The position numbers and the translations under genes were made by a program. 64,000 nt of DNA from Planctomycetota bacterium (GTDB taxonomy: Bacteria > Planctomycetota > JAMOSO01): the NCBI GenBank assembly GCA_027063065.1, contig JAMOSO010000012.1:1-64000 (forward strand), given 5' to 3'. A model generated the notes under the pieces. That model was not told where the DNA came from and ran no database searches. It saw only the letters and a list, made by a program, of their open reading frames with translations. Each line of letters begins with the position of its first letter. Within the stretch, counting starts at the first letter, position 1. Shown here one piece after another: positions 1 through 30,139 of the stretch.

Positions 1-163
1 GATATTTAGAATATTTTTAGAATGAAACGAAGGTGATAGGTACTTGATATATCATTTATAGGGAGATAATTGGAATTGATAGCTAAATATAATAGGTGTG
101 TTTTTAGTAAAGTAGATTTTTGGAATACTTTTACATCATATATATTGGTGTAATAGCTAAAAT

Positions 164-183
164 CATAATAAATATTTATTATG
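164..183. repeat. 20-bp perfect AT-rich palindrome
   Basis: The sequence CATAATAAATATTTATTATG reads the same on both strands. It lies about 90 bases beyond the stop codon of the neighbouring histidine kinase gene, so it could help end that transcript, but there is no GC stem or clear T-run. In DNA this AT-rich such palindromes arise by chance fairly often. The rest of bases 1-273 shows no gene. Confidence 0.3.
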
Positions 184-273
184 TGATGTAGTATGTGTTA
201 ATTATAATCTAAATGATTATATATACACAATAGTTTGGTGGGTTCATATTTAATTATGATTTGGTTATTTATG

Positions 274-2256
274 TTATAAAAGAGGTAATTCTATTTTAAA
301 ACATACACCATCATCAATATTGGTGGCATCTAATTTGCCTTTATGGTGTTCATCGACAATTGTTTTGGACATATATAAGCCCAGTCCTGTTCCGTTTTTT
401 TCGTCTTTGGTTGAAAAGTACGGGTTGAATATATTTTTAATAATATGCGGAGGGATACCACCACCATTGTCACATATTGTAAGAACTGTTTGATTAATAG
501 AAATTTTAATTTTTGGTTTATTAATATTTTTTTCTTTAAAGTTATCCTGTGCATTTTTTAATATATTTAATATTACTTGCATCATTTCGCCGTCATATAT
601 ATCAATTTCTTTGAGGTTAGTATAGGTGTGTTCAATTGTTATACCTGATTGGTTTAAAGATTCGCCAATAATATTTAAAGCTTTCTCAACAATAACATCT
701 AATGAGACTTTAACAGAACTTTTGTTTGGTTTATAAAAGTTTCTAAAATCATCGATAATTTGGGTTAAATTTTGCACATAATGATTGATATTTTGAAATC
801 TTTTTTCAAAATACTTGTTTTGCTCTTTTCGTCCTTCTGGAGTTTCCAAGTCAAATACTTCTAATTTTAATTTTGTATCCAAGTTTAAGATAGTACTAGA
901 GATAGAGCTTAACGGTTGTCTCCATTGATGTGCTATCATACTAATCATTTCACCCATTTGTGCCAGCCGTGATTGCTCTAGCATTTTTTGGTCTTTTTGA
1001 ATATTTTTTTCAACTTCTAGTTTTACTCTTTTATTTAATGTTTTGTTTAATTCTTTTAAATCGTTGGTTCTTTCGTCTAATTTTTTTGTCATTAATGCCA
1101 TTGGCTTAATAATGCTATTTTTAATAGCAAAATATCCTATGATAAAAAATATGCCAACCAATATAAAAATAACTAAAATTAGGTTATTAAAGACATCGTT
1201 GCTTTGTGCTAAAATTATTTTTAATGGTATTATTACTACTAAAGTCCAATGCGTGTTGGGTTGTCTAATAATAATTGCCATAGACTTTTCGTGTAGTAGT
1301 AAATCGTTAGGTATGATGATAGTGTCTATTTTTGTTTGTGTATAGTTGTCATTGTCTTTTATCATCGCCACAATATTTTTAGCTTCACTATCTTTAAGAT
1401 TAGAAATCTCTTGTTGTAATTTGTTTGTTAATTTTTTGTATTTAGGTGAAAGATGGCAAGTGTTATTGTTTAATATTCTGCTATTTAAGCTGGCATAATT
1501 TGGAAATTTATCCGCTAGTTGATTTAATGTAATATAATCATTGTTGGTTTTAGATATATCATCATTGGGGAACGTTAAAAGTTTATTATTTCTGTCTACA
1601 ATAAATCCGTATCCACCTAAACTTTGTATGTTAGTTTTTAATAATTCTTTTAGCCCATGCAACATAACGTCTATAGTGGCCACTCCTATAAATTGATGAT
1701 TTTTATATATGGGTGTAGAGGCTGTAACCATTGGCTCAAACGAATAAGGGTCTATATAAGATTTGGACCAATAAATTTTAGATTTATTATAAAATTTGGC
1801 AGGCACATACCATTCTTCATGATGGTATCCTTTTCCTTTTGGGTCGTTGTAATTATTATAAAATTTTAATGTATTATTTTTATCTCTAGCAAAAAAGTAA
1901 CTATCACGTTTTTTTGTTTTATCAATACTGTAAGGCTCTGGCCATACGCCACCTCCAGCAATGAAGTGGCTATGCCCTTTTAAGTTGATTATTGTTTTAA
2001 TAATAGTTTTGTTTTTTTCTTTATCTGTTCCTAATGTAGTTGCTATATTTGCCATGGTTTCCGAAAGAACCTCGACCATGGTAAGCTTTTGGTTAATTAA
2101 GGCATTTATTTTTTGAGATAATATTTGTGTAGAGTTAAATGCATTTTGTTGGATATCTTTTTTATTAAAAACAGAAAAAACAACATATACAGCTACTATT
2201 AAAATGATAGCGCAGGTTAATATTAGAAAACCTAATTTATATTGTATGTTTTTCAT
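274..2256 (-). CDS. Membrane histidine kinase with periplasmic Cache sensor
   Basis: This is a two-component sensor kinase. An N-terminal membrane helix (about residues 9-29) is followed by a periplasmic dCache-type region (about 35-345) with the aromatic-rich blocks usual in such sensors. A second helix lies near 352-378. A coiled linker leads to the dimerisation domain, with phospho-acceptor His near 443 in the IAHQWRQP H-box, and then a HATPase domain with N box NILKNAQDNF (about 565), DNGGGIP (about 597) and GTGLGLYMSK (about 624). All catalytic boxes look intact. The start codon overlaps the stop of the upstream receiver-GGDEF-EAL gene by four bases, so the two are co-translated and probably partners. 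The MGEMISMIAHQWRQP style is typical of Campylobacterota kinases, which suggests transfer. The ligand is unknown. Confidence 0.9.
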   Translation of the reverse strand: MKNIQYKLGFLILTCAIILIVAVYVVFSVFNKKDIQQNAFNSTQILSQKINALINQKLTMVEVLSETMANIATTLGTDKEKNKTIIKTIINLKGHSHFIAGGGVWPEPYSIDKTKKRDSYFFARDKNNTLKFYNNYNDPKGKGYHHEEWYVPAKFYNKSKIYWSKSYIDPYSFEPMVTASTPIYKNHQFIGVATIDVMLHGLKELLKTNIQSLGGYGFIVDRNNKLLTFPNDDISKTNNDYITLNQLADKFPNYASLNSRILNNNTCHLSPKYKKLTNKLQQEISNLKDSEAKNIVAMIKDNDNYTQTKIDTIIIPNDLLLHEKSMAIIIRQPNTHWTLVVIIPLKIILAQSNDVFNNLILVIFILVGIFFIIGYFAIKNSIIKPMALMTKKLDERTNDLKELNKTLNKRVKLEVEKNIQKDQKMLEQSRLAQMGEMISMIAHQWRQPLSSISSTILNLDTKLKLEVFDLETPEGRKEQNKYFEKRFQNINHYVQNLTQIIDDFRNFYKPNKSSVKVSLDVIVEKALNIIGESLNQSGITIEHTYTNLKEIDIYDGEMMQVILNILKNAQDNFKEKNINKPKIKISINQTVLTICDNGGGIPPHIIKNIFNPYFSTKDEKNGTGLGLYMSKTIVDEHHKGKLDATNIDDGVCFKIELPLL

Positions 2257-3941
2257 AATAATGTTTCATCAGGCACAGAAAAATAATATCCTTGAAACTC
2301 ATCTACACCAATATCTTTTAGCATTGTAAAAATAGTTTTGTTATAAACATATTCAGCTATTACTTTAATGCCTAATTCGTGAGAGAATTGCACAATAGCT
2401 TTAACTAATATATATGATTTTTTATTTGTATCTATATTTTTGATTAGAGATCCATCTATTTTTAAATAATCCGGTTCTATTTCTAAAATATATTCAAAAT
2501 TAGAAAAGCCACTACCAAAGTCGTCAATCGCAAATTTAACGCCGTATTGTCTAAATCTTTTAATAAATTTTTTAACCTTCTTGTAGTCTTCCATACTTTG
2601 TGTTTCGGTTATTTCAAAAATAGCTCGGCTACCAATATGTTTATGTTTAGATATAAAGTTGGCAATCTTATTAATAAACTTGTCGTTATTTATGTCTGCA
2701 TAGTCAAAATTAATGCTTAGTGATTGATTAATTTCTGTTAATTTTTTGAGTGCTGAAAATACAATAATGGATGATAAATCTTTGTATAGACGTGTTTTAA
2801 TGGCGGTATCTAAAAAATAAAAAGGCGTAATTAGTTTTTGATTATCATCTTTTATACGCATTAAAATTTCGTGTTTTTTTATATTTTGGTATCTGTCTAC
2901 AATGGCTTGATATACGGGTACTACCCCGTTGCTGTGAATAGCCTTTTTAATAAGTGCTTTATATTTTAAAGATTCTTGTATATCTGTGGTATTATTAATT
3001 AAATTGTTATACACCATAAAATGTTTTTTGTGTTTTTTTGCATGATTGAGTGCAATTTCGGCTGTTTCTAAGGTGTGTGTTGTTTCAAATGATATACCAA
3101 TACTAACATCTATATAAATATCTTCCGTGTGGTTGTTGATTTTAATAAGTGAAATGGCGTTTAACAGTTTCTCTGTAAATGTTTCATAGTATAACGGGTC
3201 GAGTCGAGGGTTGTTTTCGAGTAAAATAAATTTATCTGCGGATAAACGAAAAATATTAAAATGGGTTTGGCGTACATAATCTGTTAAAAATTTTGCAAAT
3301 TCTTTTAATACAAAGGTTCCAATATTATCTCCGTAAAATTCATTGATAATTTTAAAACGATCTATATCTATTACTAATAAAACAGGATTTTTAAATGTAG
3401 CTATTTTTTCAAATAGAGAATATCTATTTAGCAAGCCGGTTACTTCGTCGTAATGCAGTTTTTTGTCTAAAGCTATAGTTCTTTCAAAAACTTCTTTCTC
3501 TAATTTTATTTTGTAATTTTTTGCTTCTTTTTTTAATTTTATTTCTTCAATTGTTTTTGCAATTTGAAATTTAAACTGTTCGATGTTTAAAGGTTTTAAT
3601 AAATAACCATTTACACCTAGTTTTATTGCTTCTACAAAAAATGATGATTCATTGTGGGCTGACAGAAACAAAACGGGTATTTCTTTGTTTGTTTCTCTAA
3701 TGGCTCTAAACATTTCAATGCCGTCTAGTTTTGGCATTTTTATGTCTGTTATAATTAGATCGTAGTCTTTTGCGTTAAATTGTTTTAAACCGTCTGAACC
3801 GTCTTTGGCAATGTCGATGAAGTCAAAAAAATTAGAAAACAATTCTAATGATGTTTCTCGGGCAACATTATCATCTTCAACATATAAAAGTTTATAGTTG
3901 GCGCATAATTTTTTTAATTGTTTGATATCTATGGTGCTCAT
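2253..3941 (-). CDS. Response regulator with GGDEF-like and EAL domains
   Basis: The receiver domain (about residues 12-125) has phospho-acceptor Asp66 in ITDIKMP and the conserved Lys in LKP. A GGDEF-fold region (about 160-310) starts with DEVTGLLNR but has SADKF where GGDEF should be, so cyclase activity is probably lost. The EAL domain (about 325-562) has EIL for EAL, FEITET, IDDFGSG, YLKID, IAEYV and FQGYYFS, so most metal and catalytic residues are kept and c-di-GMP phosphodiesterase activity is plausible. AGGTAA precedes the ATG at a good distance. The gene overlaps the following histidine kinase by four bases. A phosphorylation-controlled c-di-GMP hydrolase is inferred. Confidence 0.9.
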   Translation of the reverse strand: MSTIDIKQLKKLCANYKLLYVEDDNVARETSLELFSNFFDFIDIAKDGSDGLKQFNAKDYDLIITDIKMPKLDGIEMFRAIRETNKEIPVLFLSAHNESSFFVEAIKLGVNGYLLKPLNIEQFKFQIAKTIEEIKLKKEAKNYKIKLEKEVFERTIALDKKLHYDEVTGLLNRYSLFEKIATFKNPVLLVIDIDRFKIINEFYGDNIGTFVLKEFAKFLTDYVRQTHFNIFRLSADKFILLENNPRLDPLYYETFTEKLLNAISLIKINNHTEDIYIDVSIGISFETTHTLETAEIALNHAKKHKKHFMVYNNLINNTTDIQESLKYKALIKKAIHSNGVVPVYQAIVDRYQNIKKHEILMRIKDDNQKLITPFYFLDTAIKTRLYKDLSSIIVFSALKKLTEINQSLSINFDYADINNDKFINKIANFISKHKHIGSRAIFEITETQSMEDYKKVKKFIKRFRQYGVKFAIDDFGSGFSNFEYILEIEPDYLKIDGSLIKNIDTNKKSYILVKAIVQFSHELGIKVIAEYVYNKTIFTMLKDIGVDEFQGYYFSVPDETLL

Positions 3942-3997
3942 ATATTACCTGATACAGTATATATAATATGACTTATTAAACAAATCAATATATGGCA

Positions 3998-4948
3998 TTA
4001 TTTAGATAGGCTTGGTTCTATGTTTGGCTCTGTAGTTAAAAGTTCTAATTCTTGACGTATTTTTTTGTCTTCTTGTAATATTTGATTTTTTTCTTTTTCT
4101 AATAGTCGTAATTTTATTTTTAATTCTTCAGCTATGGCGTTTTGTTTGTCGATACGATTGGTTAGCTCCCCTACCCTTTTTTCGTTTAATTTGGCAATGG
4201 TTTTATATTCGGTAGATGATATTAAGCTTTTTTGTAGCTTCGCCTGAGAACTGTTTAATTGTTCGGTGGTTTTTGTTTTAGTTTTGTTAATATTAATGTC
4301 TGCCCATGCAATACAGCCTATGATAACAATTAGGCTGATAAACATAATGATGTTGTGTTTGGTTTTAAGTTGTTTGATTGTTTGTTGTTTTTCTTCTACT
4401 TCTTTGTTGGTGCGGTCTAGTTCGGTTTCTTTATATGAAAGATTGTTTTCGGCAATAGCGAGTTGTGCATGTGATTGATGTTCTTTTTCTACCGCTTCAT
4501 TTAATTTAATTACAAATTGATTGATGATGTCTTTGTGTTCATTTATTGGTATTACAGCATTTGCTTCGCGGTTTGGTGTTTCGTTGTTGTAGTTGTGATT
4601 GGTTGGCTCGTGTATGTTTTGATTGTTAGGGCTTTGGTATGTTTCCATTGGTTCTATTTCTACTTCTATGCTGTTTGATATTGGTTCTACAGTTGGTTGC
4701 TCTTCTGGCATTGACATGCCAAAGTAGTTAAATAATGCTTGTTTGCTGACATAGGTATAATGTTTTTTGCCACCCGCCCTTTTGACTTGAATTGCTGCGT
4801 TTGGTGGTATGCCGTCCTCTTGGTCTTTAATTTTGCGTAAGAAACGCCTGATTGTAATTTCGGCTTTGCCGCTAAGTTCTTGGGCTTCTTTAACGGATAT
4901 ATAACCTTGTGCGGTGGCTTCTTGTGGATTTAAAATATTATCACTCAT
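3998..4948 (-). CDS. HTH-type N-terminus, coiled coil and single membrane helix; unknown function
   Basis: I do not recognise this family. Residues about 15-75 look like a small helix-turn-helix of the MerR/excisionase kind (YISVKEAQELSG then ITIRRFLRKIK), followed by a low-complexity Glu/Asn/Pro linker (about 80-135). A coiled coil precedes a hydrophobic helix (about 200-220, IMFISLIVIIGCIAWA), and a second long coiled coil (about 225-305) follows. This is a membrane-anchored putative DNA-binding protein. It lies next to, and is transcribed away from, the 1.2 kb non-coding stretch holding repeated GATAGTGTC motifs, which could be its targets. It sits 56 bases upstream of the receiver-GGDEF-EAL gene. 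A role in anchoring DNA to the membrane or in regulation is only a guess. Confidence 0.7.
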   Translation of the reverse strand: MSDNILNPQEATAQGYISVKEAQELSGKAEITIRRFLRKIKDQEDGIPPNAAIQVKRAGGKKHYTYVSKQALFNYFGMSMPEEQPTVEPISNSIEVEIEPMETYQSPNNQNIHEPTNHNYNNETPNREANAVIPINEHKDIINQFVIKLNEAVEKEHQSHAQLAIAENNLSYKETELDRTNKEVEEKQQTIKQLKTKHNIIMFISLIVIIGCIAWADININKTKTKTTEQLNSSQAKLQKSLISSTEYKTIAKLNEKRVGELTNRIDKQNAIAEELKIKLRLLEKEKNQILQEDKKIRQELELLTTEPNIEPSLSK

Positions 4949-5097
4949 ATTTGATATTATTTCATATTTGATTAGTAAATGATAGGGAAAAATTTATAAG
5001 ATATATGGTTGATATGCTTAAGTTTGGTCTTTGAAACGGCTTGGTTTGATGACGCTGTGTATTTGTTATGTCGTTGTTATGGAGATATTCGGTGTGT

Positions 5098-6826: not shown

Positions 6827-8773
6827 TTAATTGATATTTTTGTTAACAGTGGCTTCGTTGTGATTAGAATTGTCTGTAAAAGAAATGGTAAAAGTAGCTC
6901 CATTTATATGGTTAGAAGCCTGTAAATTACCGCCCATTTCAGTCATAGCATTTGCTGAGTGATGTAGTCCAAAGCCATGGCCAGATTGTTTGGTTGTAAA
7001 TCCATAGGTAAAAATTTTAGCTAAATAAATTTCGGGTATGCCAGGGCCATTGTCGCTGATTTTAATAATGGGTTTTTTGTTGTCTATATATTTAATTTCT
7101 ATTTCTATAATATTGTCTTTAGGAGTGGTTGACATAGCCTCATAGGCGTTTTTAATTATGTTTGTTATAATATGAGCCAATTTGCTGCGGTGACATTTAG
7201 CTATTACGTTTTTTTCAAAATGCGTTTCAACTGTTACTTTATATTGTTGTAAATCAGTTTTCATTAATGCTAAAACTTTTTGGGTTTCTTCTGCTAAGTT
7301 TACTGTTTCTGTAAAATAGCCACCTTTGGCATAATCTTGTTGAGAATAAATGGCTTCTTTAATCATATAAATGGATTTGTCGGCACGCTGTATTAGTTGT
7401 AACTGTTCTATTTTTAGTGACTCAAACGTATGCGCCATTGCTATTATAAAATCAGGTATTTTTTTACCGCGTTTATCATTGGTTAAAAAATCATTAATGT
7501 TTTGTTGATTGGCTATAATTAAATCACTTAATTTGCGGACTTGTTCGGCAGGGCAGGCATTAATGCTTTGTTTAATTTGATAAAAACAAGTGCTAGTAGT
7601 GTTTAAAATATTACCAATGTTATGTAATATACCTGTGGATATTTCAGCCATACCTGCTTTATGTGCCGATTCTAGTAAGGCTTTTTGTGCTTGATTACGC
7701 TCGTTTAAAAGAGAGTCAATATCATGTTTTAGTAAATTTAAAGCATCATATACCTCACTATATTTGTCATTTGGATTGATTGGAAATAAATCTTGATTCA
7801 CTTCATCCCATGATAATCTAGCGATTGTACTGACAAGTTTATTAATTTCATCATCCGTGTGTGGTGTATTATCATTGGTTGCTAAATCTTGTTTTTCAAA
7901 CGTATAAATTAAATCAAACGCTTCTTGATCATTATTGACAAAATAGATATTTTTTTTAACAAAATATTGAAATGCCTTAATTGCAAATTTGTATAAGGTC
8001 GATCCACCTATAAAAATAATAGTTTGAGGTAGTATATTGTTGCCGTTTAAGTACTGCCACATTTGTTGAGAATATGCTCGTCTGGTGCGCCAGTCTCTTA
8101 CATGAGTATTTATAACATTTGATATACGATAATAATTGGCATTGTTTAGCAAGCCACTGTCGTATACTTTTTTTTGTATCGCAATCATAGGTTTTATATC
8201 GGTGTGTTTTAAATGTCCAGAACTAGTGATATACAAAATATTGTTGGCAATTATTTTAATATCTGATTTCCAATTATTAGATTTGTATACCCAATCAGGG
8301 TTAGTTGTAATGTTGCTTTGACCGTGTTTATATAGTATTTGATGAGCTTCTTTAATAGCTTGTTCTAAAGAATTTAAAAATAAAAAAGGAAATGGCGGGT
8401 CGTAGATTTTTAGGGCTAATTGATATATAAATTTTAAACGTGTAGGAGTATTAATGGATATAGTTGCTAATATACGTCCTTTATCAGCAAAATATTGATT
8501 TTTTTGCAGGGTACGATTTGATTTGTTAGGACGACCTTTAACAGAATTGTATTTGTGAATTTCTACAAAGGCGGTTTTATTTTTTAAATATTTATTGATA
8601 AATTGTTCTCTTAAGAGGTTGTAGGTAGCTATGTTTGCATTGGCTAAAGAACCTTTTATAATCACATATAATATACAGTTATCAATTACAGCAAATGAAA
8701 TGTAATAATTTGGACCTATTTCAATATTTTGCCATTCATCAGGTTGAAAAAAATGTTTAGAAGTATCTAACAT
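6827..8773 (-). CDS. Soluble histidine kinase with duplicated N-terminal domain
   Basis: No membrane helix is evident, so this sensor kinase is probably cytoplasmic. Residues about 1-150 and 165-300 look like two diverged copies of one domain: each has an ILY(V/I) strand with a Gly two to three residues on, then a helix, and ends near 'SLEQAIKEA' or 'NDQEAFDLI'. The fold may be STAS-like, but I do not recognise it. A coiled segment leads to an H-box of the GILHNIGN type (His384), where HN replaces HE/HQ. The HATPase domain has NIIKNAYEAM, ISDNGPGIP (about 571) and GHGFGLHHS (about 596). The HNxGN style is known in kinases that keep ATP-binding boxes. No receiver gene is adjacent and no clear ribosome site precedes the ATG. 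Partner and signal are unknown. Confidence 0.8.
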   Translation of the reverse strand: MLDTSKHFFQPDEWQNIEIGPNYYISFAVIDNCILYVIIKGSLANANIATYNLLREQFINKYLKNKTAFVEIHKYNSVKGRPNKSNRTLQKNQYFADKGRILATISINTPTRLKFIYQLALKIYDPPFPFLFLNSLEQAIKEAHQILYKHGQSNITTNPDWVYKSNNWKSDIKIIANNILYITSSGHLKHTDIKPMIAIQKKVYDSGLLNNANYYRISNVINTHVRDWRTRRAYSQQMWQYLNGNNILPQTIIFIGGSTLYKFAIKAFQYFVKKNIYFVNNDQEAFDLIYTFEKQDLATNDNTPHTDDEINKLVSTIARLSWDEVNQDLFPINPNDKYSEVYDALNLLKHDIDSLLNERNQAQKALLESAHKAGMAEISTGILHNIGNILNTTSTCFYQIKQSINACPAEQVRKLSDLIIANQQNINDFLTNDKRGKKIPDFIIAMAHTFESLKIEQLQLIQRADKSIYMIKEAIYSQQDYAKGGYFTETVNLAEETQKVLALMKTDLQQYKVTVETHFEKNVIAKCHRSKLAHIITNIIKNAYEAMSTTPKDNIIEIEIKYIDNKKPIIKISDNGPGIPEIYLAKIFTYGFTTKQSGHGFGLHHSANAMTEMGGNLQASNHINGATFTISFTDNSNHNEATVNKNIN

Positions 8774-8790
8774 AGCTGTATAACTATGTT

Positions 8791-9189
8791 TTACTTTGTG
8801 CCTTTTTCAATTGCGCAACTGGCATCTATTCCGCCCCTAGTATTATATTTAGTAAATACTTTTAAGTATTGAGGGGATAAAAGGTCAAAAATATCCTTAA
8901 AAATACGGTTTGTAGCATCTTCTTGGTAGATGCCGACATTGCGAAAGCTAACAAAATAATATTTTAAACTTTTTAATTCCACGATATTATCCTGTGGGAT
9001 ATAGGTAATTTCTATATCGGCGATATCAGGCAATCCAGAAAAGGGACATACGGCAGAAAACTCAGATGTTTTGTATTCGATTAATTGGCGTTCTCCTTTA
9101 TATGGAAAACACTCTAATATATTTGTGTTTATTGTGTCTTGACTTTGAAAAGATAAAACTTTTCCTTCTGCATAATTTTCATCAATCAT
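8791..9189 (-). CDS. queF: NADPH-dependent 7-cyano-7-deazaguanine reductase (QueF, short type)
   Basis: QueF reduces preQ0 to preQ1 in queuosine synthesis. At about 132 residues this is the short unimodular form. The catalytic Cys is in AVCPFSGLPDIAD, which also carries the catalytic Asp, and the QueF signature ELKSLKYYFVSFRN follows with GIYQEDATNRI. The frame stays open upstream to a TTG at 9219, but that codon lies inside a hairpin. The ATG at 9189 follows ACGAGAAA and removes ten non-conserved residues, so it is preferred. A QueD-like protein is encoded at 50.6 kb, so parts of the queuosine pathway are dispersed. Confidence 0.93.
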   Translation of the reverse strand: MIDENYAEGKVLSFQSQDTINTNILECFPYKGERQLIEYKTSEFSAVCPFSGLPDIADIEITYIPQDNIVELKSLKYYFVSFRNVGIYQEDATNRIFKDIFDLLSPQYLKVFTKYNTRGGIDASCAIEKGTK

Positions 9190-9207
9190 TATTTTCTCGT
9201 TATGATA

Positions 9208-9241
9208 ATCCCGATACAACCATTAATGATTGTATCGGGAT
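9208..9241. terminator. Hairpin between the lipoprotein gene and queF
   Basis: Perfect 12-bp arms (9208-9219 and 9230-9241) flank a 10-base loop. It begins seven bases after the stop of the DUF2846 gene on the minus strand and ends just before queF. There is no T-run, so it may be a weak terminator, an attenuator or an mRNA-stability stem. It lacks the preQ1-riboswitch A-rich tail. Confidence 0.6.
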
Positions 9242-9247
9242 ATTGGA

Positions 9248-9685
9248 TTATTGAGGTTGATAATATGAGGTTGAGCTTATTTCGGCTAAGCCTTCGGTGT
9301 CACTCATTTTTACAAGTGTATAAGCGCCAAAAAGACCTGGTTTAGCTTTTAAATAATATGCTTTGCCAGCTTCAAGGTTGTCGTATGTAATTGTATCTAA
9401 AGTAGATTTTGGAAACCCATTTTTTTGTAATTTTAATTTAAACGCACCTGCTTTAACGTGGATTGGGATATAAGCATTGTTAATTAAAGGGGTTACAGTC
9501 TTGTTGTCGTTTATAATCGCACTAAAATGTAATCCACGACTGATAAAGCTCTCAGGGCGATATAAATATACAACCGCTTCGTCAGTTTTAATTTGCTCTG
9601 CTTTAAAAGGCGTGCGAGGCATAACACAGCCTTGTAGTGTTATTAACACAAGCATTCCTACCATTAAAGTTAATTTGTTAATCAT
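9248..9685 (-). CDS. DUF2846-like lipoprotein
   Basis: A signal peptide ends in the lipobox LQGC (Cys20), so this is an exported lipoprotein. The rest resembles DUF2846 proteins: VVYLYRPESF near 38-48, a middle beta-rich part, then LEAGKAYYLKAKPG. The family has no settled function. CTAAGGAG precedes the ATG. Downstream is a hairpin and then queF, so they may share a transcript, but no functional link is evident. Confidence 0.75.
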   Translation of the reverse strand: MINKLTLMVGMLVLITLQGCVMPRTPFKAEQIKTDEAVVYLYRPESFISRGLHFSAIINDNKTVTPLINNAYIPIHVKAGAFKLKLQKNGFPKSTLDTITYDNLEAGKAYYLKAKPGLFGAYTLVKMSDTEGLAEISSTSYYQPQ

Positions 9686-9777
9686 TCCTGCTCCTTAGAT
9701 ATAAGTATAGTGATTATATTCATAAAGATGGCATTTGTTAATAAAATTATCGTAGCTTTTTGAATCAAAGCTAATTG

Positions 9778-9788
9778 GGCAACTAGGC
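9778..9788. promoter_or_regulatory. GGCAACTAGGC motif upstream of the GntR-type regulator gene
   Basis: This 11-mer recurs exactly at 14747-14757, upstream of the pseudopilin. Here it sits within the dyad AATTG-N10-CAATT. It could be an operator for the regulator whose gene starts 57 bases downstream. This is inferred from the repeat alone. Confidence 0.3.
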
Positions 9789-9808
9789 AATTAACCCGAT
9801 GATAATAT

Positions 9809-9836
9809 TTGTTTAAACTAAATATATGCTTATAGT
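9809..9836 (+). promoter_or_regulatory. Candidate promoter of the GntR-type regulator gene
   Basis: TTGTTT (9809-9814) and TATAGT (9831-9836) are 16 bases apart. The start would fall about at base 9843, directly before the ATG at 9845, implying a leaderless mRNA. The perfect palindrome GTTTAAAC (9811-9818) overlaps the -35 box and could be an autoregulatory site. Confidence 0.35.
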
Positions 9837-9844
9837 TGCTGATT

Positions 9845-10840
9845 ATGATAGGTAAAACAAATTTAATTATTAATTGGCTTACTGCTGAAATTGAATCGGG
9901 TAATTTTGCGGTGGGAGCGCCATTGCCAACTCGCATAGAAATTATGAATCGTTTTGGTGTTGCTCGTGCGACAGCAGATAAGGCAATTGCTAAATTAAGA
10001 GCTGACGGCCACATCTTTGGAAGACGTGGAGCTGGTACTTTTGTGGCTGCTAGATCTAGTCGGAATAGGGTGTTTTTAGTAAATCCGTCTCAAGAATGTT
10101 TAGATTATCTAACTCCATTGTTAAATGGCAAAATCGCTTATGAGATAGTCCAAAGTGATTTATTAGAGTCAATTTTTGAGCGTATTACACGTCCTGGAAC
10201 ACGTATTATTTGGGATAGACCCCGCGCGTGTGATAAGGGTTTGATTTTAAAATTAAATAAATGTGTGCCGTATCAATTAGTTATTAATAGGCGCGATCCC
10301 AATTTAAATTTTATCACTACAGATACGCAATTAGGAATAGGTAAAGGTATTGATGTAGTGCATAAAAAGATGGGCGATGATATTCCTTGGGTGGTGGTGT
10401 CGCCACCTGTTAATCCACAATGTTTTTTTTGGGCAGAACGTGAAGTGTTTTTTTATCAAGAACTCAATGCGCTTGGCAGGTTAGTTACGCTGAGTAAACG
10501 TATAGATTATGGTGGTTCATTGGCTACGGCCGAAGCTATGCAAGTATGGATTAATGAATTGCCAAAACGATTTGCGGTTTTTATCCCAGAGCGAGAATTA
10601 GTCAGAACGTTTTTGAAGGTATCATCTAAAATGGGATTGGTATCGGGTAAAGATTTTTGCATATTAATGACCGATCGTGATGATACTTTTGATATGGCTC
10701 CTGGTATTGTAGCTTTAGAACAAAACATAGTGTCTATGTTTTATGAAGCAGCCACATGGGCTTTGGATGAAGCACCTAAAAAATTAAAAAAATTAATTAG
10801 TCATAAAATACATAAAGGAGAATTTTATGGAACAGCTTAA
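9845..10840 (+). CDS. GntR-family transcription regulator with LacI-like ligand domain
   Basis: An N-terminal winged helix-turn-helix of GntR type (about residues 5-70) carries PLPTRIEIMNRFGVARATADKAI and the wing GRRGAGTFVA. The C-terminal part (about 75-330) is a periplasmic-binding-protein-like sugar-sensing domain as in AraR- or LacI-type regulators, ending near the cluster's first enzyme gene. The frame is open from a TTG at 9836, but the ATG at 9845 fits GntR starts better. No ribosome site is visible. It overlaps the next gene by 14 bases, so it heads the carbohydrate operon and probably controls it in response to a sugar. Confidence 0.85.
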   Translation: MIGKTNLIINWLTAEIESGNFAVGAPLPTRIEIMNRFGVARATADKAIAKLRADGHIFGRRGAGTFVAARSSRNRVFLVNPSQECLDYLTPLLNGKIAYEIVQSDLLESIFERITRPGTRIIWDRPRACDKGLILKLNKCVPYQLVINRRDPNLNFITTDTQLGIGKGIDVVHKKMGDDIPWVVVSPPVNPQCFFWAEREVFFYQELNALGRLVTLSKRIDYGGSLATAEAMQVWINELPKRFAVFIPERELVRTFLKVSSKMGLVSGKDFCILMTDRDDTFDMAPGIVALEQNIVSMFYEAATWALDEAPKKLKKLISHKIHKGEFYGTA

Positions 10841-21067: not shown

Positions 21068-21097
21068 GTGTTTTTAACAATGTGTAACAATGTGTAA
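21068..21097 (+). CDS. Possible nine-codon leader peptide
   Basis: AAAGGGAG lies six bases before a GTG that opens the frame GTG-TTT-TTA-ACA-ATG-TGT-AAC-AAT-GTG-TAA, ending within the tandem repeats. The peptide would be MFLTMCNNV. The ribosome site is better than that of the downstream gene. Whether it is translated is unknown, and it could be coincidence. Confidence 0.2.
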   Translation: MFLTMCNNV

Positions 21098-21202
21098 CAA
21101 TGTGTAACAATGTGTAACAATGTGTAACAATGTGTAACAATGTGTAACAATGTGTAACAATGTGTAACAATGTGTAACAATGTGTAACAATGTGTAACAA
21201 TG
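21075..21202 (+). repeat. Tandem 10-bp repeat, 12 perfect copies plus ends
   Basis: The unit TGTGTAACAA is repeated twelve times without change from 21081 to 21200, preceded by a partial TAACAA. The array abuts the receiver-GGDEF gene: the first ATG of that frame (21200) is formed by its last base. A 10-bp period is close to one helical turn. Perfect identity means recent expansion or strong conservation. Copy-number change would move the upstream signals relative to the gene. Confidence 0.95.
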
Positions 21203-21211
21203 GGGTGTTAT

Positions 21212-22456
21212 ATGCAAAAAAACATTACTATCTTATATGTTGAGGACGAAGATGTTATTCGTGAGAATACCAAACGTCCGCTTACGCGTTTGTGCGATAC
21301 TTTAATAGTGGCTTCAGATGGTCAAGAGGGTTTAAATTTATATAAAAAATATCGTCCTGATATTGTAGTCTCGGACATCAAAATGCCAAATATGAATGGC
21401 ATTGAAATGTGTAGGGCTATTAAAAATATCGATAAAGACCAACATATTGTTTTTACTACCGCCCATAGTGAATGCGGATATTTTATGGACGCCATTGATA
21501 TGCAGATTGATTGTTATATTTTAAAGCCCATCGATTATGATTTGTTAGAAAACAAAGCAAATAAAATTATTGATACAATTAGTAATAAATACAAATTACG
21601 TCAACAAGAAATTTTAATAAATGAAATAGCTAAATTACAAGATAATTTATTAATAGTCTTAGACTGTAAACAGAATATCGTGTTTTCTAATGATAGATTT
21701 TTACATTTTTTTGATGTAAATACATTGGATGATTTTAAAGAAACATACAGTATATTAAGTTCTTTATTTATAGAAGGTGAAGATTTTTTTACTGCTTGTA
21801 ATGAAAATTGGTTATTAGATTTGCAAAAACTACCTAAAAAAGAACAAGTGGTTTCTATTATGAATAAGGCCTTGGCTGAACCGCAAGTTTTTTTAGTGTC
21901 TGTCAAAGAAATATCAGAAACCTCTCATACTATTTTAATTTTAACTGAAATCACTCATATAGCTGATGAAACAAAAGAGTTAAAGCAAAAGGCTTTTACA
22001 GATGATTTGACATCTATTTATAATCGAGCTTATTTTAATAAAATGCTCATCAAACAAATGCAGGATAATCAAGATTGTTTAAGTTTGATTTTATTGGACG
22101 TGGATAGATTTAAAGATTTTAATGATGTTTATGGTCATCAGGTTGGTGATAAAGTGTTACAATCTTTAGCTTCTATTATTAATGCTAAAATCAGAACAGC
22201 GGATATATTTGCTAGGTGGGGTGGCGAAGAATTTACTATAATTTTATCTGATACTAATTTGGCAAATGCTTTAAAAGTTGCAGAAAATTTACGACAGACT
22301 ATAGAAGAGTATATCTTTATAGGCGATTTAAAAGTAACTTGTAGTTTTGGTGTGGCGGAAGCTACCAAAGAAGATGTGCCAGATACCTTAATAAAACGAG
22401 CGGATGATGCATTATATCGGGCTAAAACTGGGGGGAGAAATAGGGTTGCCCAATAA
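21212..22456 (+). CDS. Response regulator with GGDEF diguanylate cyclase
   Basis: The receiver (about residues 5-120) has Asp55 in VSDIKMP and the conserved Lys in LKPID. A middle part (about 140-235) looks PAS-like. The GGDEF domain (about 250-414) has DDLTSIYNRAYF, LLDVDRFKDFNDVYGH and an intact GGEEF at 337-341, so c-di-GMP synthesis is expected. The frame also has an ATG at 21200 inside the repeat array; the ATG at 21212 follows TGGGGTG and gives a normal receiver start. It is followed after 20 bases by the binding-protein/peroxidase fusion and the kinase gene, its likely partner. Confidence 0.92.
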   Translation: MQKNITILYVEDEDVIRENTKRPLTRLCDTLIVASDGQEGLNLYKKYRPDIVVSDIKMPNMNGIEMCRAIKNIDKDQHIVFTTAHSECGYFMDAIDMQIDCYILKPIDYDLLENKANKIIDTISNKYKLRQQEILINEIAKLQDNLLIVLDCKQNIVFSNDRFLHFFDVNTLDDFKETYSILSSLFIEGEDFFTACNENWLLDLQKLPKKEQVVSIMNKALAEPQVFLVSVKEISETSHTILILTEITHIADETKELKQKAFTDDLTSIYNRAYFNKMLIKQMQDNQDCLSLILLDVDRFKDFNDVYGHQVGDKVLQSLASIINAKIRTADIFARWGGEEFTIILSDTNLANALKVAENLRQTIEEYIFIGDLKVTCSFGVAEATKEDVPDTLIKRADDALYRAKTGGRNRVAQ

Positions 22457-22476: not shown

Positions 22477-24300
22477 ATGCGTAAATTATTATTATGCTTA
22501 TGTGTGGTAATTAATATCTGTGTTTGTGATTTTGTATATGCTATAAATCATAAAGTTTCGGTGCAGTTATTATGGAAACATCAATTTGAATTTGCGGGCA
22601 TTTATGTAGCAAAAAATAAAGGTTTTTATCAAGAAGCTAATTTAGATGTGGATATAATACCTTTTGATGCCAATAGTGATATGGTGCAAAATGTATTGCA
22701 GCAAAAAATCACATTTGGCATAGGGTATCCCAGTATTATTTTACATGGCAATGATGTTGTTTTATTAAATGCTTTTTTTCAAAGCTCACCGCATATAATT
22801 GTTACGACAAATCCAAACATAAAAAACATTAAAGATTTTAAAAATAAAACTATTATGATTAATATGGATGCTGTTAAAATTGCTGCATTTGCAGGAATGT
22901 TATCCTCTGGAGGTATAACATTTGCTGATTTAAAAAAAGTTAAGCATCAATATAATTTAGATAGCATTATACATCATAAGGTAGATTTGATGCCTATGTA
23001 TATGTCTAATGAGTTATACCTATTAGATAAAAAAAACATATATTATAAAATTTTTGATCCACGTGATTTTGGTTTTGATTTTTATACGGATATTTTATTT
23101 ACATCGCTTAATTTTGTCAAACAGCACCCAAAAGAAGTCGCCGCATTTCAGAAAGCCACCATTAAAGGATGGTTATGGGCTTTTGAACATATTGAAGAAT
23201 CTGTAGATTTAATTTTAAAATATTATAATACCTCAAAAACTAAGGATGCATTATTGCATGAAGCACATGTGTTAAAAAATTTAGCCTTTTATAAGACAGA
23301 GGTTTTTGGACAGATTAAAGCTAGTAAACTCAAAGAAATTTATAATACATATTATATGCTAGATATAGTTAAAAAAGATTTAAATGTTCAAAAATTAATA
23401 TTTGGTTTTGTATATCAAGAGCCAATAATACCTATCCCACAGCATATTGAGTATAATGTTCAAAAGGCCAAATTAGGTAAAAATTTATTTTTTGATACAC
23501 GATTAAGTGCCGATAATACGGTTAGTTGTGCTACTTGTCATGTTATTGAAGAGGGTGGAGATGATAATGCTCAATTTTCTACTGGTATAAAAGGTAGTTT
23601 AGGCCATATCAATTCGCCAACAGTATTAAACGCTAGATACAATATAGCGCAATTTTGGGATGGCAGAGCAAAAGACTTAAAAGAACAGGTTAAAGGACCA
23701 ATAGAAAACCCTGTAGAAATGGGACATTCTTTAGAAGGCGTCGAACAGGTTTTAAAACGTGACCATAAATTACTTAATGAATTTAACCATATATATACTA
23801 CAGATTTGACACAAGAGAATATTATGGATGCCATAGCTGAGTTTGAAAAAACTTTAATTACACCTAATTGTCAATTTGATAAATATTTACGCGGTGACAA
23901 AACTGCTATTACAAAATATGCCCAAGATGGTTATAACTTATTTAAAAAATACGGTTGTATTAATTGTCATAATGGGATTAATATAGGTGGTAATTTATTT
24001 CAAAAAGTTGGTATTTATCCTAAGTTTTCAACAGAAGTACATAATTTAGGTATGACATCATTGGCTGGAAATCTGGTTGATAAGTTTTATTTTAAAGTTC
24101 CTTCTTTAAGAAATATTTGTAAAACAGCACCTTATTTTCATACAGGTGATATTAATAGTTTAGAACGAGCAGTAAAAATTATTAGTTATATGCAATTAGG
24201 AATAGTTTTGAGTCAAAGGGATACTGATAAAATAATGAGTTTTTTGCAATCGTTAGATGGTGAATATCCTGAATTTATGAAAGCTCAAACATGCGAATAA
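22477..24300 (+). CDS. Periplasmic NMT1/THI5-like binding domain fused to di-heme cytochrome c peroxidase
   Basis: A signal peptide (about 1-22, ending VYA) precedes a solute-binding domain of the NMT1/THI5 type (about 25-300), with VSVQLLWKHQFEFAGIYVAK and GFYQEANLDVDI as in sensor-linked binding proteins. From about residue 315 the protein is a MauG/cytochrome c peroxidase-type enzyme: LGKNLFFDTRLS, heme motif CATCH (351-355), INSPTVLNARYN, FWDGRAKDL, a second heme motif CINCH (494-498), and KTAPYFHTG. Both heme motifs and surrounding blocks look intact. The joined domains are in one unbroken frame. GGGAGGAAG precedes the ATG, and the stop overlaps the kinase gene by ten bases. A role in sensing a ligand or peroxide for the kinase is inferred. 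Confidence 0.9.
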   Translation: MRKLLLCLCVVINICVCDFVYAINHKVSVQLLWKHQFEFAGIYVAKNKGFYQEANLDVDIIPFDANSDMVQNVLQQKITFGIGYPSIILHGNDVVLLNAFFQSSPHIIVTTNPNIKNIKDFKNKTIMINMDAVKIAAFAGMLSSGGITFADLKKVKHQYNLDSIIHHKVDLMPMYMSNELYLLDKKNIYYKIFDPRDFGFDFYTDILFTSLNFVKQHPKEVAAFQKATIKGWLWAFEHIEESVDLILKYYNTSKTKDALLHEAHVLKNLAFYKTEVFGQIKASKLKEIYNTYYMLDIVKKDLNVQKLIFGFVYQEPIIPIPQHIEYNVQKAKLGKNLFFDTRLSADNTVSCATCHVIEEGGDDNAQFSTGIKGSLGHINSPTVLNARYNIAQFWDGRAKDLKEQVKGPIENPVEMGHSLEGVEQVLKRDHKLLNEFNHIYTTDLTQENIMDAIAEFEKTLITPNCQFDKYLRGDKTAITKYAQDGYNLFKKYGCINCHNGINIGGNLFQKVGIYPKFSTEVHNLGMTSLAGNLVDKFYFKVPSLRNICKTAPYFHTGDINSLERAVKIISYMQLGIVLSQRDTDKIMSFLQSLDGEYPEFMKAQTCE

Positions 24301-26633
24301 TATTATTAATACTTGTATCTATTTGTGCAGGTTGTACAAGTACTAATGTTGATTTGGAGTCTCTTCAAGAAAAGTTATTAATTGAAAATCAATATATTGA
24401 CAATATCGCTAGTGATATATTGTGTATAGAAAATTTGGACAAAATTAATGCTCGTATTAGTAAAATAGAGTCTATTTTAGACGATCCAAGCTTAGCTGAG
24501 ATTAAAAATTTTGAACAATTAAAAAAAGAATTTAAGTTAAAAATAAAATTATTACAAAGAATCATTTCTTATGGTGCTATATGTTGTAATTCTTTAGATT
24601 ATGTTCGTTTACATAAAAATGATAGCACTTATCGAATCATAAATATTAAAAGTGTAAATATTGATAATGAATTAACAAAGTTATATAAATTACCTTATAA
24701 TACTATTAATAGTAATATGTTGCATAAACATTACATTATCTTATTAAAGCATTATAAAGACTATAAATATTTGTTAAATAAATCTAATAAGCTAGATATT
24801 AAAAGTTTAATATATAAACTACATTATCCAAATCCAAATTATTCTTTTATATATACTATTTGTATAATTGTTTTTTTATTAGCTATTATCATATTTGTTT
24901 TATATAAAATAAATCGTAGCAATATGCGATGTGCAGTAATTTTATTAATTAGTTTTTTACTATTAATTTTTATTGTTTATCACAGTTTAAAATATAACTA
25001 TCACCAAAGAGAGCTCGTATATAAGCAACGTTATTTAGATAATGCCTTAAATAATTGTAAAGTTATAGAAAATACTAATAAGATTATGGCACAATTAATT
25101 TTTGATGGTTATATCAATAAGCCAATTATTAAACAATTATTTAAAAAACAGGATAGATTAGGGCTTTATAATTATTTAAAAAGTGATTATGAGAAATTAA
25201 AAAATAAATATTCTATTTTTGTTATACAGTTCCACTTGCGAGATACTACAAGTTTTTTAAGAATGAATGATCCAGGTAGATTTGGCGATCAATTAGGTAA
25301 TATTAGGGAAAGTGTTAATTATGTTAATAATACTTTTAAAACTTATTCTGGTTATGAAGTTGGTAGAATAAAAGGCGCTTTTAGAAATGTATTTGCGCTT
25401 ACTGACAATAAAGATTGTTTAGGCAGTGTAGAAATTAGTTTTTCGGTTAATTTTTTTATTCGCCAATATTTAAGCAATCATAAAGATACAAAAATTAATT
25501 TTTTAATTAATGGCAATAACTTATTACCCTCTGTCAAAAATTATTTTAAACCATCATCAATTGATGGTTTCTTTTATGATAAATCAGTTTTAAATGATTC
25601 ACAGGATAAAAATGTTCTACAAACAAATAAACATAAAAGACAGGAGAACTTAAAATTAATTTCTAAAAAAATTAAACTAGGCAAACCTTTTGTTGTTTAT
25701 TTTTCAAACGTACAAGAATTAGTTGCTATTATTCCTATTAAAGACAAATTTACAAATCAGGTAGTATCTGTAATACAGATAGACAATATAGATAAAGAAA
25801 TTGGTATTTTAAAACAGGAATTTTATAGGATGTTATTGGTTGTAATTTCAGCAATTTTTATTTTATTTTTATTTATTTATAAACAAATTGTAGCTAAATA
25901 TAATTTAGAGATTAAAATTGATAAAGCTTTGTATGAAAACACTAAACATTTGCAGGCTTTACAGCATCAGTCAAAATTGGCGCAAATGGGCGAAATGATA
26001 GGTGCAATTGCACATCAATGGCGACAACCTTTAAATGCCATTAGCACATCTATTCAAAATTTAAAATATGATTATCAAGATGGCTATTTACAAGATAAAA
26101 AATTTATTCATAAATTTATCGAGACAAATAAAACGACAATTAAATTTATGAGTAAAACAATAGATGATTTTAGAAGTTTTTTTAGGGTAGATAAACAAAA
26201 GTATCATTTTCAAATTAAAGAAGCTACACAATCTGTGATTAATATGCAATCGACACAGTTGTCTAATAATGGTATTATAATTAGTTTAGATGGGGATGAC
26301 TTTAGTTTTTATGGTTTTCCGGGAGAGTATCAACAAGTTATATTAAATATAATTAATAACGCCAAGGACGCTTTAATAGATAAAACAACAGCTAGGTTAT
26401 TAATTAAGATTACTATACAAGACAAGAAAATTATGATTAAAGATAATGCCGGAGGTATACCTAAGCATATTATTAATAGAATATTTGAGCCTTATTTTAC
26501 AACTAAAGAACAAGGAAAAGGCACAGGTATGGGCTTATATATGTCTAAAATGATAGTAGAAGATAATATGGGTGGTAAATTAACAGTGTATAATGAACAA
26601 GACGGGGCGTGTTTTTGTATAGATTTTTCTTAA
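24291..26633 (+). CDS. Membrane histidine kinase with two periplasmic regions
   Basis: The N-terminus MRIILLILVSICAGC has a lipobox-like end (Cys15). A helical region (about 20-180) precedes helix TM1 (about 185-205) and TM2 (about 213-233). A Cache-like sensor (about 240-510) contains RDTTSFLRMNDPGRFGDQLG, resembling sensor domains in Arcobacter kinases. TM3 (about 513-533) leads to the H-box IAHQWRQP (His575) and a HATPase domain with NIINNAKDAL, KDNAGGIP and GTGMGLYMSK. Catalytic residues look intact. The gene overlaps the peroxidase fusion, so the products are made together. The receiver-GGDEF protein two genes upstream is the probable target. Confidence 0.9.
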   Translation: MRIILLILVSICAGCTSTNVDLESLQEKLLIENQYIDNIASDILCIENLDKINARISKIESILDDPSLAEIKNFEQLKKEFKLKIKLLQRIISYGAICCNSLDYVRLHKNDSTYRIINIKSVNIDNELTKLYKLPYNTINSNMLHKHYIILLKHYKDYKYLLNKSNKLDIKSLIYKLHYPNPNYSFIYTICIIVFLLAIIIFVLYKINRSNMRCAVILLISFLLLIFIVYHSLKYNYHQRELVYKQRYLDNALNNCKVIENTNKIMAQLIFDGYINKPIIKQLFKKQDRLGLYNYLKSDYEKLKNKYSIFVIQFHLRDTTSFLRMNDPGRFGDQLGNIRESVNYVNNTFKTYSGYEVGRIKGAFRNVFALTDNKDCLGSVEISFSVNFFIRQYLSNHKDTKINFLINGNNLLPSVKNYFKPSSIDGFFYDKSVLNDSQDKNVLQTNKHKRQENLKLISKKIKLGKPFVVYFSNVQELVAIIPIKDKFTNQVVSVIQIDNIDKEIGILKQEFYRMLLVVISAIFILFLFIYKQIVAKYNLEIKIDKALYENTKHLQALQHQSKLAQMGEMIGAIAHQWRQPLNAISTSIQNLKYDYQDGYLQDKKFIHKFIETNKTTIKFMSKTIDDFRSFFRVDKQKYHFQIKEATQSVINMQSTQLSNNGIIISLDGDDFSFYGFPGEYQQVILNIINNAKDALIDKTTARLLIKITIQDKKIMIKDNAGGIPKHIINRIFEPYFTTKEQGKGTGMGLYMSKMIVEDNMGGKLTVYNEQDGACFCIDFS

Positions 26634-26699: not shown

Positions 26700-30139
<3,440 letters not shown>

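Follow-up and report, generated by a model that had tools for sequence, protein, structure and literature searches.

The window analysed here, a 64,000-nucleotide stretch of a Planctomycetota genome, contains a gene in which a solute-binding domain of the NMT1/THI5 type is joined in frame to a di-heme peroxidase of the cytochrome c peroxidase (CCP) type, between the genes for a receiver-GGDEF response regulator and a histidine kinase. The question raised by this locus is what a peroxidase is doing within a signalling operon. The gene linkage of the peroxidase half proves more interesting than the fusion itself, and the counts are strong: the nearest Campylobacterota relatives of this enzyme are encoded directly upstream of receptors, nearly all of which carry a DAHL domain, and this suggests that the CCP is a general partner of DAHL receptors.

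Organization of the operon and the fusion gene

The coordinates of the operon and its domains are collected in Table 1. An earlier note, made from the letters of the sequence alone, had described one unbroken frame with two intact heme motifs in a two-component operon, and each of these points was confirmed: the 607 codons run without a stop, the motifs read CATCH and CINCH, and the fusion gene begins 20 nt behind the response regulator gene and overlaps the kinase gene by 10 nt. While the genes are as the note stated, it missed the low GC content of the operon, the DAHL domain of the kinase and the repeat array upstream.

Table 1. Features of the operon and their positions in the window
Feature	Position	Strand	Evidence or remarks
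10-bp repeat array, 12.8 perfect copies (TAACAATGTG)	21075..21202	+	TRF, 100% matches
Response regulator, receiver and GGDEF output	21200..22456	+	Pfam Response_reg 3.3e-23, GGDEF 2.3e-44
NMT1-CCP fusion gene	22477..24300	+	607 aa, open frame without internal stop
NMT1/THI5 solute-binding domain	22549..23409	+	residues 25-311 of fusion
Di-heme peroxidase domain	23419..24297	+	residues 315-607 of fusion
Heme-binding motif 1, CATCH	23527..23541	+	residues 351-355, fusion CCP domain
Heme-binding motif 2, CINCH	23956..23970	+	residues 494-498, fusion CCP domain
Ile569	24181..24183	+	conserved AVxxM position; Met in 63/64 relatives (column counts)
Histidine kinase gene	24291..26633	+	780 aa; Pfam HisKA 1.1e-6, HATPase_c 1.9e-17
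Divergent DAHL domain of kinase (probable)	24363..24845	+	residues about 25-185; custom profiles, not Pfam
Second periplasmic region of kinase, dCache-like	24987..25820	+	residues about 233-510; Pfam dCache_3 6.1e-5, below cut-off
Kinase core	25959..26630	+	residues 557-780

The fusion protein opens with a hydrophobic segment (residues 5-23) that could be a signal peptide or an anchor. Residues 37-241 match Pfam NMT1 (PF09084, E 3.6e-42; profile positions 2-215 of 216) and residues 329-475 match CCP_MauG (PF03150, E 6.9e-53), both far over the cut-off. In a PDB sequence search the solute-binding proteins 4nmy and 3ix1 align to residues 24-267 (E 1e-11 to 1e-12), and the di-heme peroxidases 9qdt and 1iqc align to residues 314-601 (E about 1e-78). 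The peroxidase part starts at residue 315 with the motif EPIIPIP, at the very point where stand-alone CCPs start after the signal peptide and have their mature N-terminus. In the predicted structure, residues 98-210 and 253-313, in the NMT1 half, are modelled poorly. Across the whole genome there is a single NMT1 match and a single CCP match, and both are this gene.

The CCP_MauG superfamily is marked by two features, a pair of CxxCH motifs and a catalytic Gln with a catalytic Glu, and the fusion has both. By column counts the C, C and H of both motifs are invariant in 64 relatives, and the catalytic residues Gln404 and Glu414, near the peroxidatic heme, are likewise kept in 64 of 64, so that these CCPs are probably still redox-active, judging by their sequences. 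One departure is Ile569, which takes the place of a conserved Met that we take to be the ligand of the second, high-potential heme in CCPs; for this reason the fusion is not classed as a canonical CcpA-type peroxidase. With Met572 lying three residues further on, about one helical turn, the redox potentials of the fusion may differ from those of canonical CCPs.

The response regulator has the receiver residue D59, a GGEEF motif at 341-345 and an RxxD I-site at 332-335, and an alternative start for its gene lies at 21212. The repeat array, which is unique to this place in the whole genome, runs up to the start codon of this gene, and its copy number could vary expression of the operon. Every 10-bp unit contains an ATG at the head of a five-codon frame, which ends 2 nt short of a later ATG.

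The note had also held the fusion to be unusual, and the architecture searches agree. Whole-protein searches of 59 and 392 genomes of the window's phylum and of three overlapping Campylobacterota samples (397, 104 and 249 genomes) found no second NMT1-CCP fusion; each half was matched many times, never both in one frame. One candidate (G816, open frame 740) turned out to be an ordinary CCP adjoining a DAHL gene. In a scan of a public collection the closest relatives of the NMT1 half are N-terminal domains in large sensor proteins of Campylobacterota (those inspected are histidine kinases), and those of the CCP half are stand-alone Campylobacterota CCPs. The fusion is an unusual new variant.

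Linkage of CCP genes to DAHL receptor genes

The downstream neighbour was examined for the 64 Campylobacterota CCPs nearest to that of the window, 60 of them among the strongest matches of the Campylobacterota search and four from the public collection scan. It is a same-strand receptor gene in every case, at a distance of -35 to +134 nt; the two genes overlap in 42 of the 64 pairs and are within 5 nt of each other in 57. Pfam DAHL (PF19443) is found in 62 of these 64 receptors, or in 62 of 65 when the window kinase, itself one of the three without a match, is added. The outputs of the 65 receptors are diverse (GGDEF in 37, of which 34 with EAL; HATPase in 14; MCP in 10). A CCP that reports to its receptor would be expected to show just this, a constant CCP-DAHL pair for sensing combined with outputs that can be exchanged. 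The linkage is therefore not special to the fusion, whose CCP half belongs to a receptor-linked clade of Campylobacterota CCPs.

The converse relation was examined by a Pfam DAHL scan of 397 Campylobacterota genomes, which gave 135 matches over the cut-off. A CCP of E<=1e-80 is encoded directly upstream of 105 of these genes, and a weaker, paralogous or broken CCP occupies the same place in 26 of the remaining 30, for a total of 131 of 135. The four exceptions are a gene at a contig edge, a gene upstream of a CCP-DAHL pair, a receptor gene preceded in the usual place of the CCP by one for a 110-aa protein with a single CxxCH motif (L199, G415:C31, about 2376-2708) and a gene with none (L212). 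Eight canonical CCP paralogues of 330-350 aa from four of the same Campylobacterota genomes served as a control, and none has a DAHL neighbour. Since other bacteria commonly have CCPs without DAHL, the rule is tight from DAHL to CCP and not in the reverse direction.

The arrangement extends to other groups. A CCP lies directly upstream of six of the eight over-cut-off DAHL genes in the window's phylum, and the same order is found in Neptuniibacter (L028) and in a Stygiobacter genome (L232). Two loci of the window's phylum (L238 and L240) have DAHL genes without a CCP in the DNA examined. Weak DAHL matches (E 1e-4 to 1e-5) in L227, L228, L229 and L231 were set aside, as a custom HMM found no DAHL in them.

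Several loci show variations. In L204 (G416:C76), L209 (G168:C1) and L213 (G313:C1) the CCP before the DAHL gene is split in two frames, representing either pseudogenes or sequencing errors, and L206 (G304:C5) has a row of DAHL, CCP and DAHL genes on one strand. Short CCPs of 303-304 aa in L268 and L269 are followed by membrane proteins without a match to the DAHL profile, perhaps with more divergent DAHL-like domains; L269 and L007, a locus discussed below, are from the same genome.

The nearly one-to-one linkage from DAHL to CCP offers a simple joint answer to two puzzles, the recently named sensor domain DAHL on the one hand and, on the other, DocA, which is needed for chick colonisation but reportedly not for peroxide resistance: the peroxidase would be the sensor of the receptor. 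According to a review, in Campylobacter jejuni the CCP gene docA lies immediately upstream of docB (Tlp10), and docA mutation lowers colonisation (PMC3156733); Cj0020 is under distinct regulation (PMC5656828). This pair is a single published example of the adjacency. The literature search found no statement that DocA and DocB act together or that the pairing is general, and no paper tying the DAHL family to peroxidases, which is weak evidence of novelty as the search covered only part of the subscription papers.

Alternatively, the CCP may be a protective enzyme that only detoxifies peroxide and is co-regulated with a DAHL receptor that binds small molecules itself. The conservation of Gln404 and Glu414 in all 64 relatives is in keeping with such a role, as is the report that the DAHL domain of Tlp10 detects several small molecules including malate (PMC9796306), which also implies that a protein partner may be dispensable for a DAHL domain. 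This alternative nevertheless leaves unexplained the fixed order of CCP and then receptor, the gene overlaps, the three or more unrelated outputs and the persistence of the pair across phyla, and the eight canonical paralogues checked are never in the receptor-linked place. Furthermore, neither of the two CCPs of C. jejuni contributes to H2O2 resistance (PMC3156733). A purely protective role is thus unlikely, and a sensory role for the CCP is preferred.

A probable divergent DAHL domain in the window kinase

The window kinase has hydrophobic segments at residues 3-21, 186-204, 212-230 and 511-529 and its phospho-acceptor at H575; the CCP of the fusion is directly upstream on the same strand. 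Up to E 1, Pfam DAHL gives no match to this kinase. However, by hhalign residues 27-179 align with a profile made from CCP-linked DAHL domains (probability 83, E 9e-6); the alignment is colinear and includes the conserved ExFKSxNAxxxNS region, and the profile finds nothing in three other segments of the operon proteins. An HMM built from 61 CCP-linked DAHL domains gives this segment 22.7 bits, compared with a best score of 10.1 bits in 2000 shuffles, and ranks the kinase first among 48 ORFs of the window, with the caveat that this HMM was trained on CCP-linked receptors. Identity to DAHL domains is low (16-20%). The region is predicted to be all-helical (pLDDT 77.8) between the first two hydrophobic segments, and a Foldseek search with the model found no significant match to a solved structure. 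The N-terminus of the kinase is therefore a probable, not a proven, divergent DAHL domain.

This domain bears on a second alternative, in which the fusion of the window acts through NMT1 only and its peroxidase is a passenger of recombination that may be impaired. Such a fate would be consistent with the finding of the fusion nowhere else in the genomes searched, with the replacement of the conserved second-heme Met by Ile and with the apparently recent acquisition of the operon (judged by GC content, see below). Against it, the frame is open, neither CxxCH motif is disrupted, Gln and Glu of the catalytic site are retained, and the DAHL domain came along with the peroxidase. A passenger role is accordingly regarded as improbable, more so than a protective one.

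Proposed mechanism

The operon is best read as a periplasmic sensor, a membrane kinase and a diguanylate-cyclase pathway. The CCP half of the fusion would act in the periplasm as the partner of the N-terminal DAHL domain of the overlapping kinase. When the heme state of the CCP changes, through reaction with peroxide or through reduction from the electron transport chain, it would sit differently on the DAHL domain and so set the activity of the kinase. Phosphate would then pass from H575 to D59 of the receiver-GGDEF protein and change the level of c-di-GMP, and the NMT1 domain would provide an additional small-molecule input to the same periplasmic partner. What is observed is the architecture, the CCP-DAHL gene linkage across phyla, the affinity to Campylobacterota and the low GC; we infer that CCP and DAHL touch, that peroxide is the stimulus, which way the response goes and that this kinase phosphorylates this regulator. 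Taken as a whole, the account of a CCP co-sensor of a DAHL kinase that feeds GGDEF, gained an NMT1 domain and crossed phyla as a spliced operon appears probable.

The earlier note proposed a ligand- or peroxide-responsive switch feeding c-di-GMP signalling. An input of redox state or ligand to c-di-GMP remains the most sensible reading, but it is incomplete, since the link between CCPs and signalling is not confined to this fusion and the path likely runs from CCP to DAHL. Indeed, the operon seems to have been acquired and its kinase has a DAHL-like sensor of its own, which together favour this path over two merely neighbouring sensors.

The evidence is evenly balanced on a broader proposal, that DAHL domains in general are receptors for a dedicated di-heme peroxidase, by means of which members of several phyla sense peroxide or redox state in the periplasm and pass it to interchangeable outputs (c-di-GMP, kinase and chemotaxis), the window having a recombined co-sensor with two inputs. 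A CCP acting as the sensor of a DAHL receptor would be an unusual case of such an enzyme as a signalling partner, and the NMT1-fused form would join two inputs.

The same gene linkage would be predicted by control in the opposite direction, in which the DAHL protein acts on the localisation, maturation or reduction of the peroxidase and signalling runs outwards. As the outputs of the receptors (kinase, GGDEF/EAL and MCP) are made for inward signalling, this reading is very improbable, and a signal from the CCP inward is retained.

Origin of the operon

The operon looks to have been acquired horizontally from Campylobacterota. In the CCP tree the CCP of the window pairs with that of an Arcobacteraceae locus, L001 (support 99/94; 56% identity), and both fall inside the DAHL-linked clade of Campylobacterota (99/96), apart from the DAHL-linked CCPs of the window's own phylum. 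Two NMT1-domain sensor genes (3-4980 and 7944-10743) are found on the L001 contig within 3 kb of its CCP-DAHL-kinase pair, so that parts of the window's fusion lie side by side there.

In L007, from a Campylobacterales metagenome-assembled genome, a response regulator-GGDEF gene precedes a one-piece gene for an NMT1-SBP-PAS-kinase protein, in the order found in the window. Identity between the two loci is 51% for NMT1, 60.6% for the kinase core and 40% over the full length of the response regulator. Homology to the NMT1 part of the L007 kinase stops at fusion residue 311, and the CCP starts at residue 315. The simplest account, based on these alignments, has a CCP-DAHL cassette taking the place of the middle part of an L007-like NMT1-kinase gene in a Campylobacterota operon, which would have fused NMT1 to the CCP and left the kinase as a separate overlapping gene before the transfer to the window's phylum.

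The GC content of the three operon genes (24-31%) is lower than that of the neighbouring genes (36-40%), which makes a recent transfer likely, with a chimeric assembly as the alternative. Contamination or misassembly of Campylobacterota DNA would fit the sharp drop in GC, the Campylobacterota affinity and an assembly in 71 contigs, but it is the least probable of the alternatives because the stretch is flanked by higher-GC genes within a single contig of 70.6 kb, contamination is estimated at 0.2% and the fusion is absent from every Campylobacterota genome searched.

On the 3' side of the kinase, a DUF1858-like gene and genes for ThiC and ThiI (named by eye) follow on the same strand (26700-30139) with normal GC. 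NMT1/THI5 proteins can bind thiamine precursors. A thiamine link through ThiC and ThiI (27178-30139) was nevertheless dropped, since GC content jumps where the kinase gene ends, which points to an acquired segment that stops before them, and their proximity is possibly a coincidence. The window has no Rfam match and hence no candidate TPP riboswitch.

Comparison with known systems

The nearest described arrangement is that of DocA (Cj0020c) and DocB (Cj0019c, Tlp10) in C. jejuni, which resembles the window in that a CCP gene stands directly before a DAHL receptor gene and differs from it in having an MCP output and no NMT1 domain. The L007 operon shares with the window its gene order and three homologous parts; in L007, however, NMT1 and kinase are one protein of 968 aa with SBP_bac_3 and PAS between them, and the gene contains no CCP. 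Bacterial di-heme CCPs of solved structure (1iqc, 4aal and 1eb7; E about 1e-61 to 1e-79) share with the fusion its two CxxCH motifs and its Gln and Glu catalytic residues; the fusion is set apart by the fused NMT1 domain, the Ile in place of the second-heme Met and the linkage to a receptor.

In working principle the proposed CCP-DAHL pair is like TorT-TorS, ChvE-VirA and LuxP-LuxQ, in which a soluble periplasmic protein is the co-sensor of a membrane receptor. The partners in those systems are binding proteins, whereas the pair proposed here would consist of a heme peroxidase and a DAHL receptor domain.
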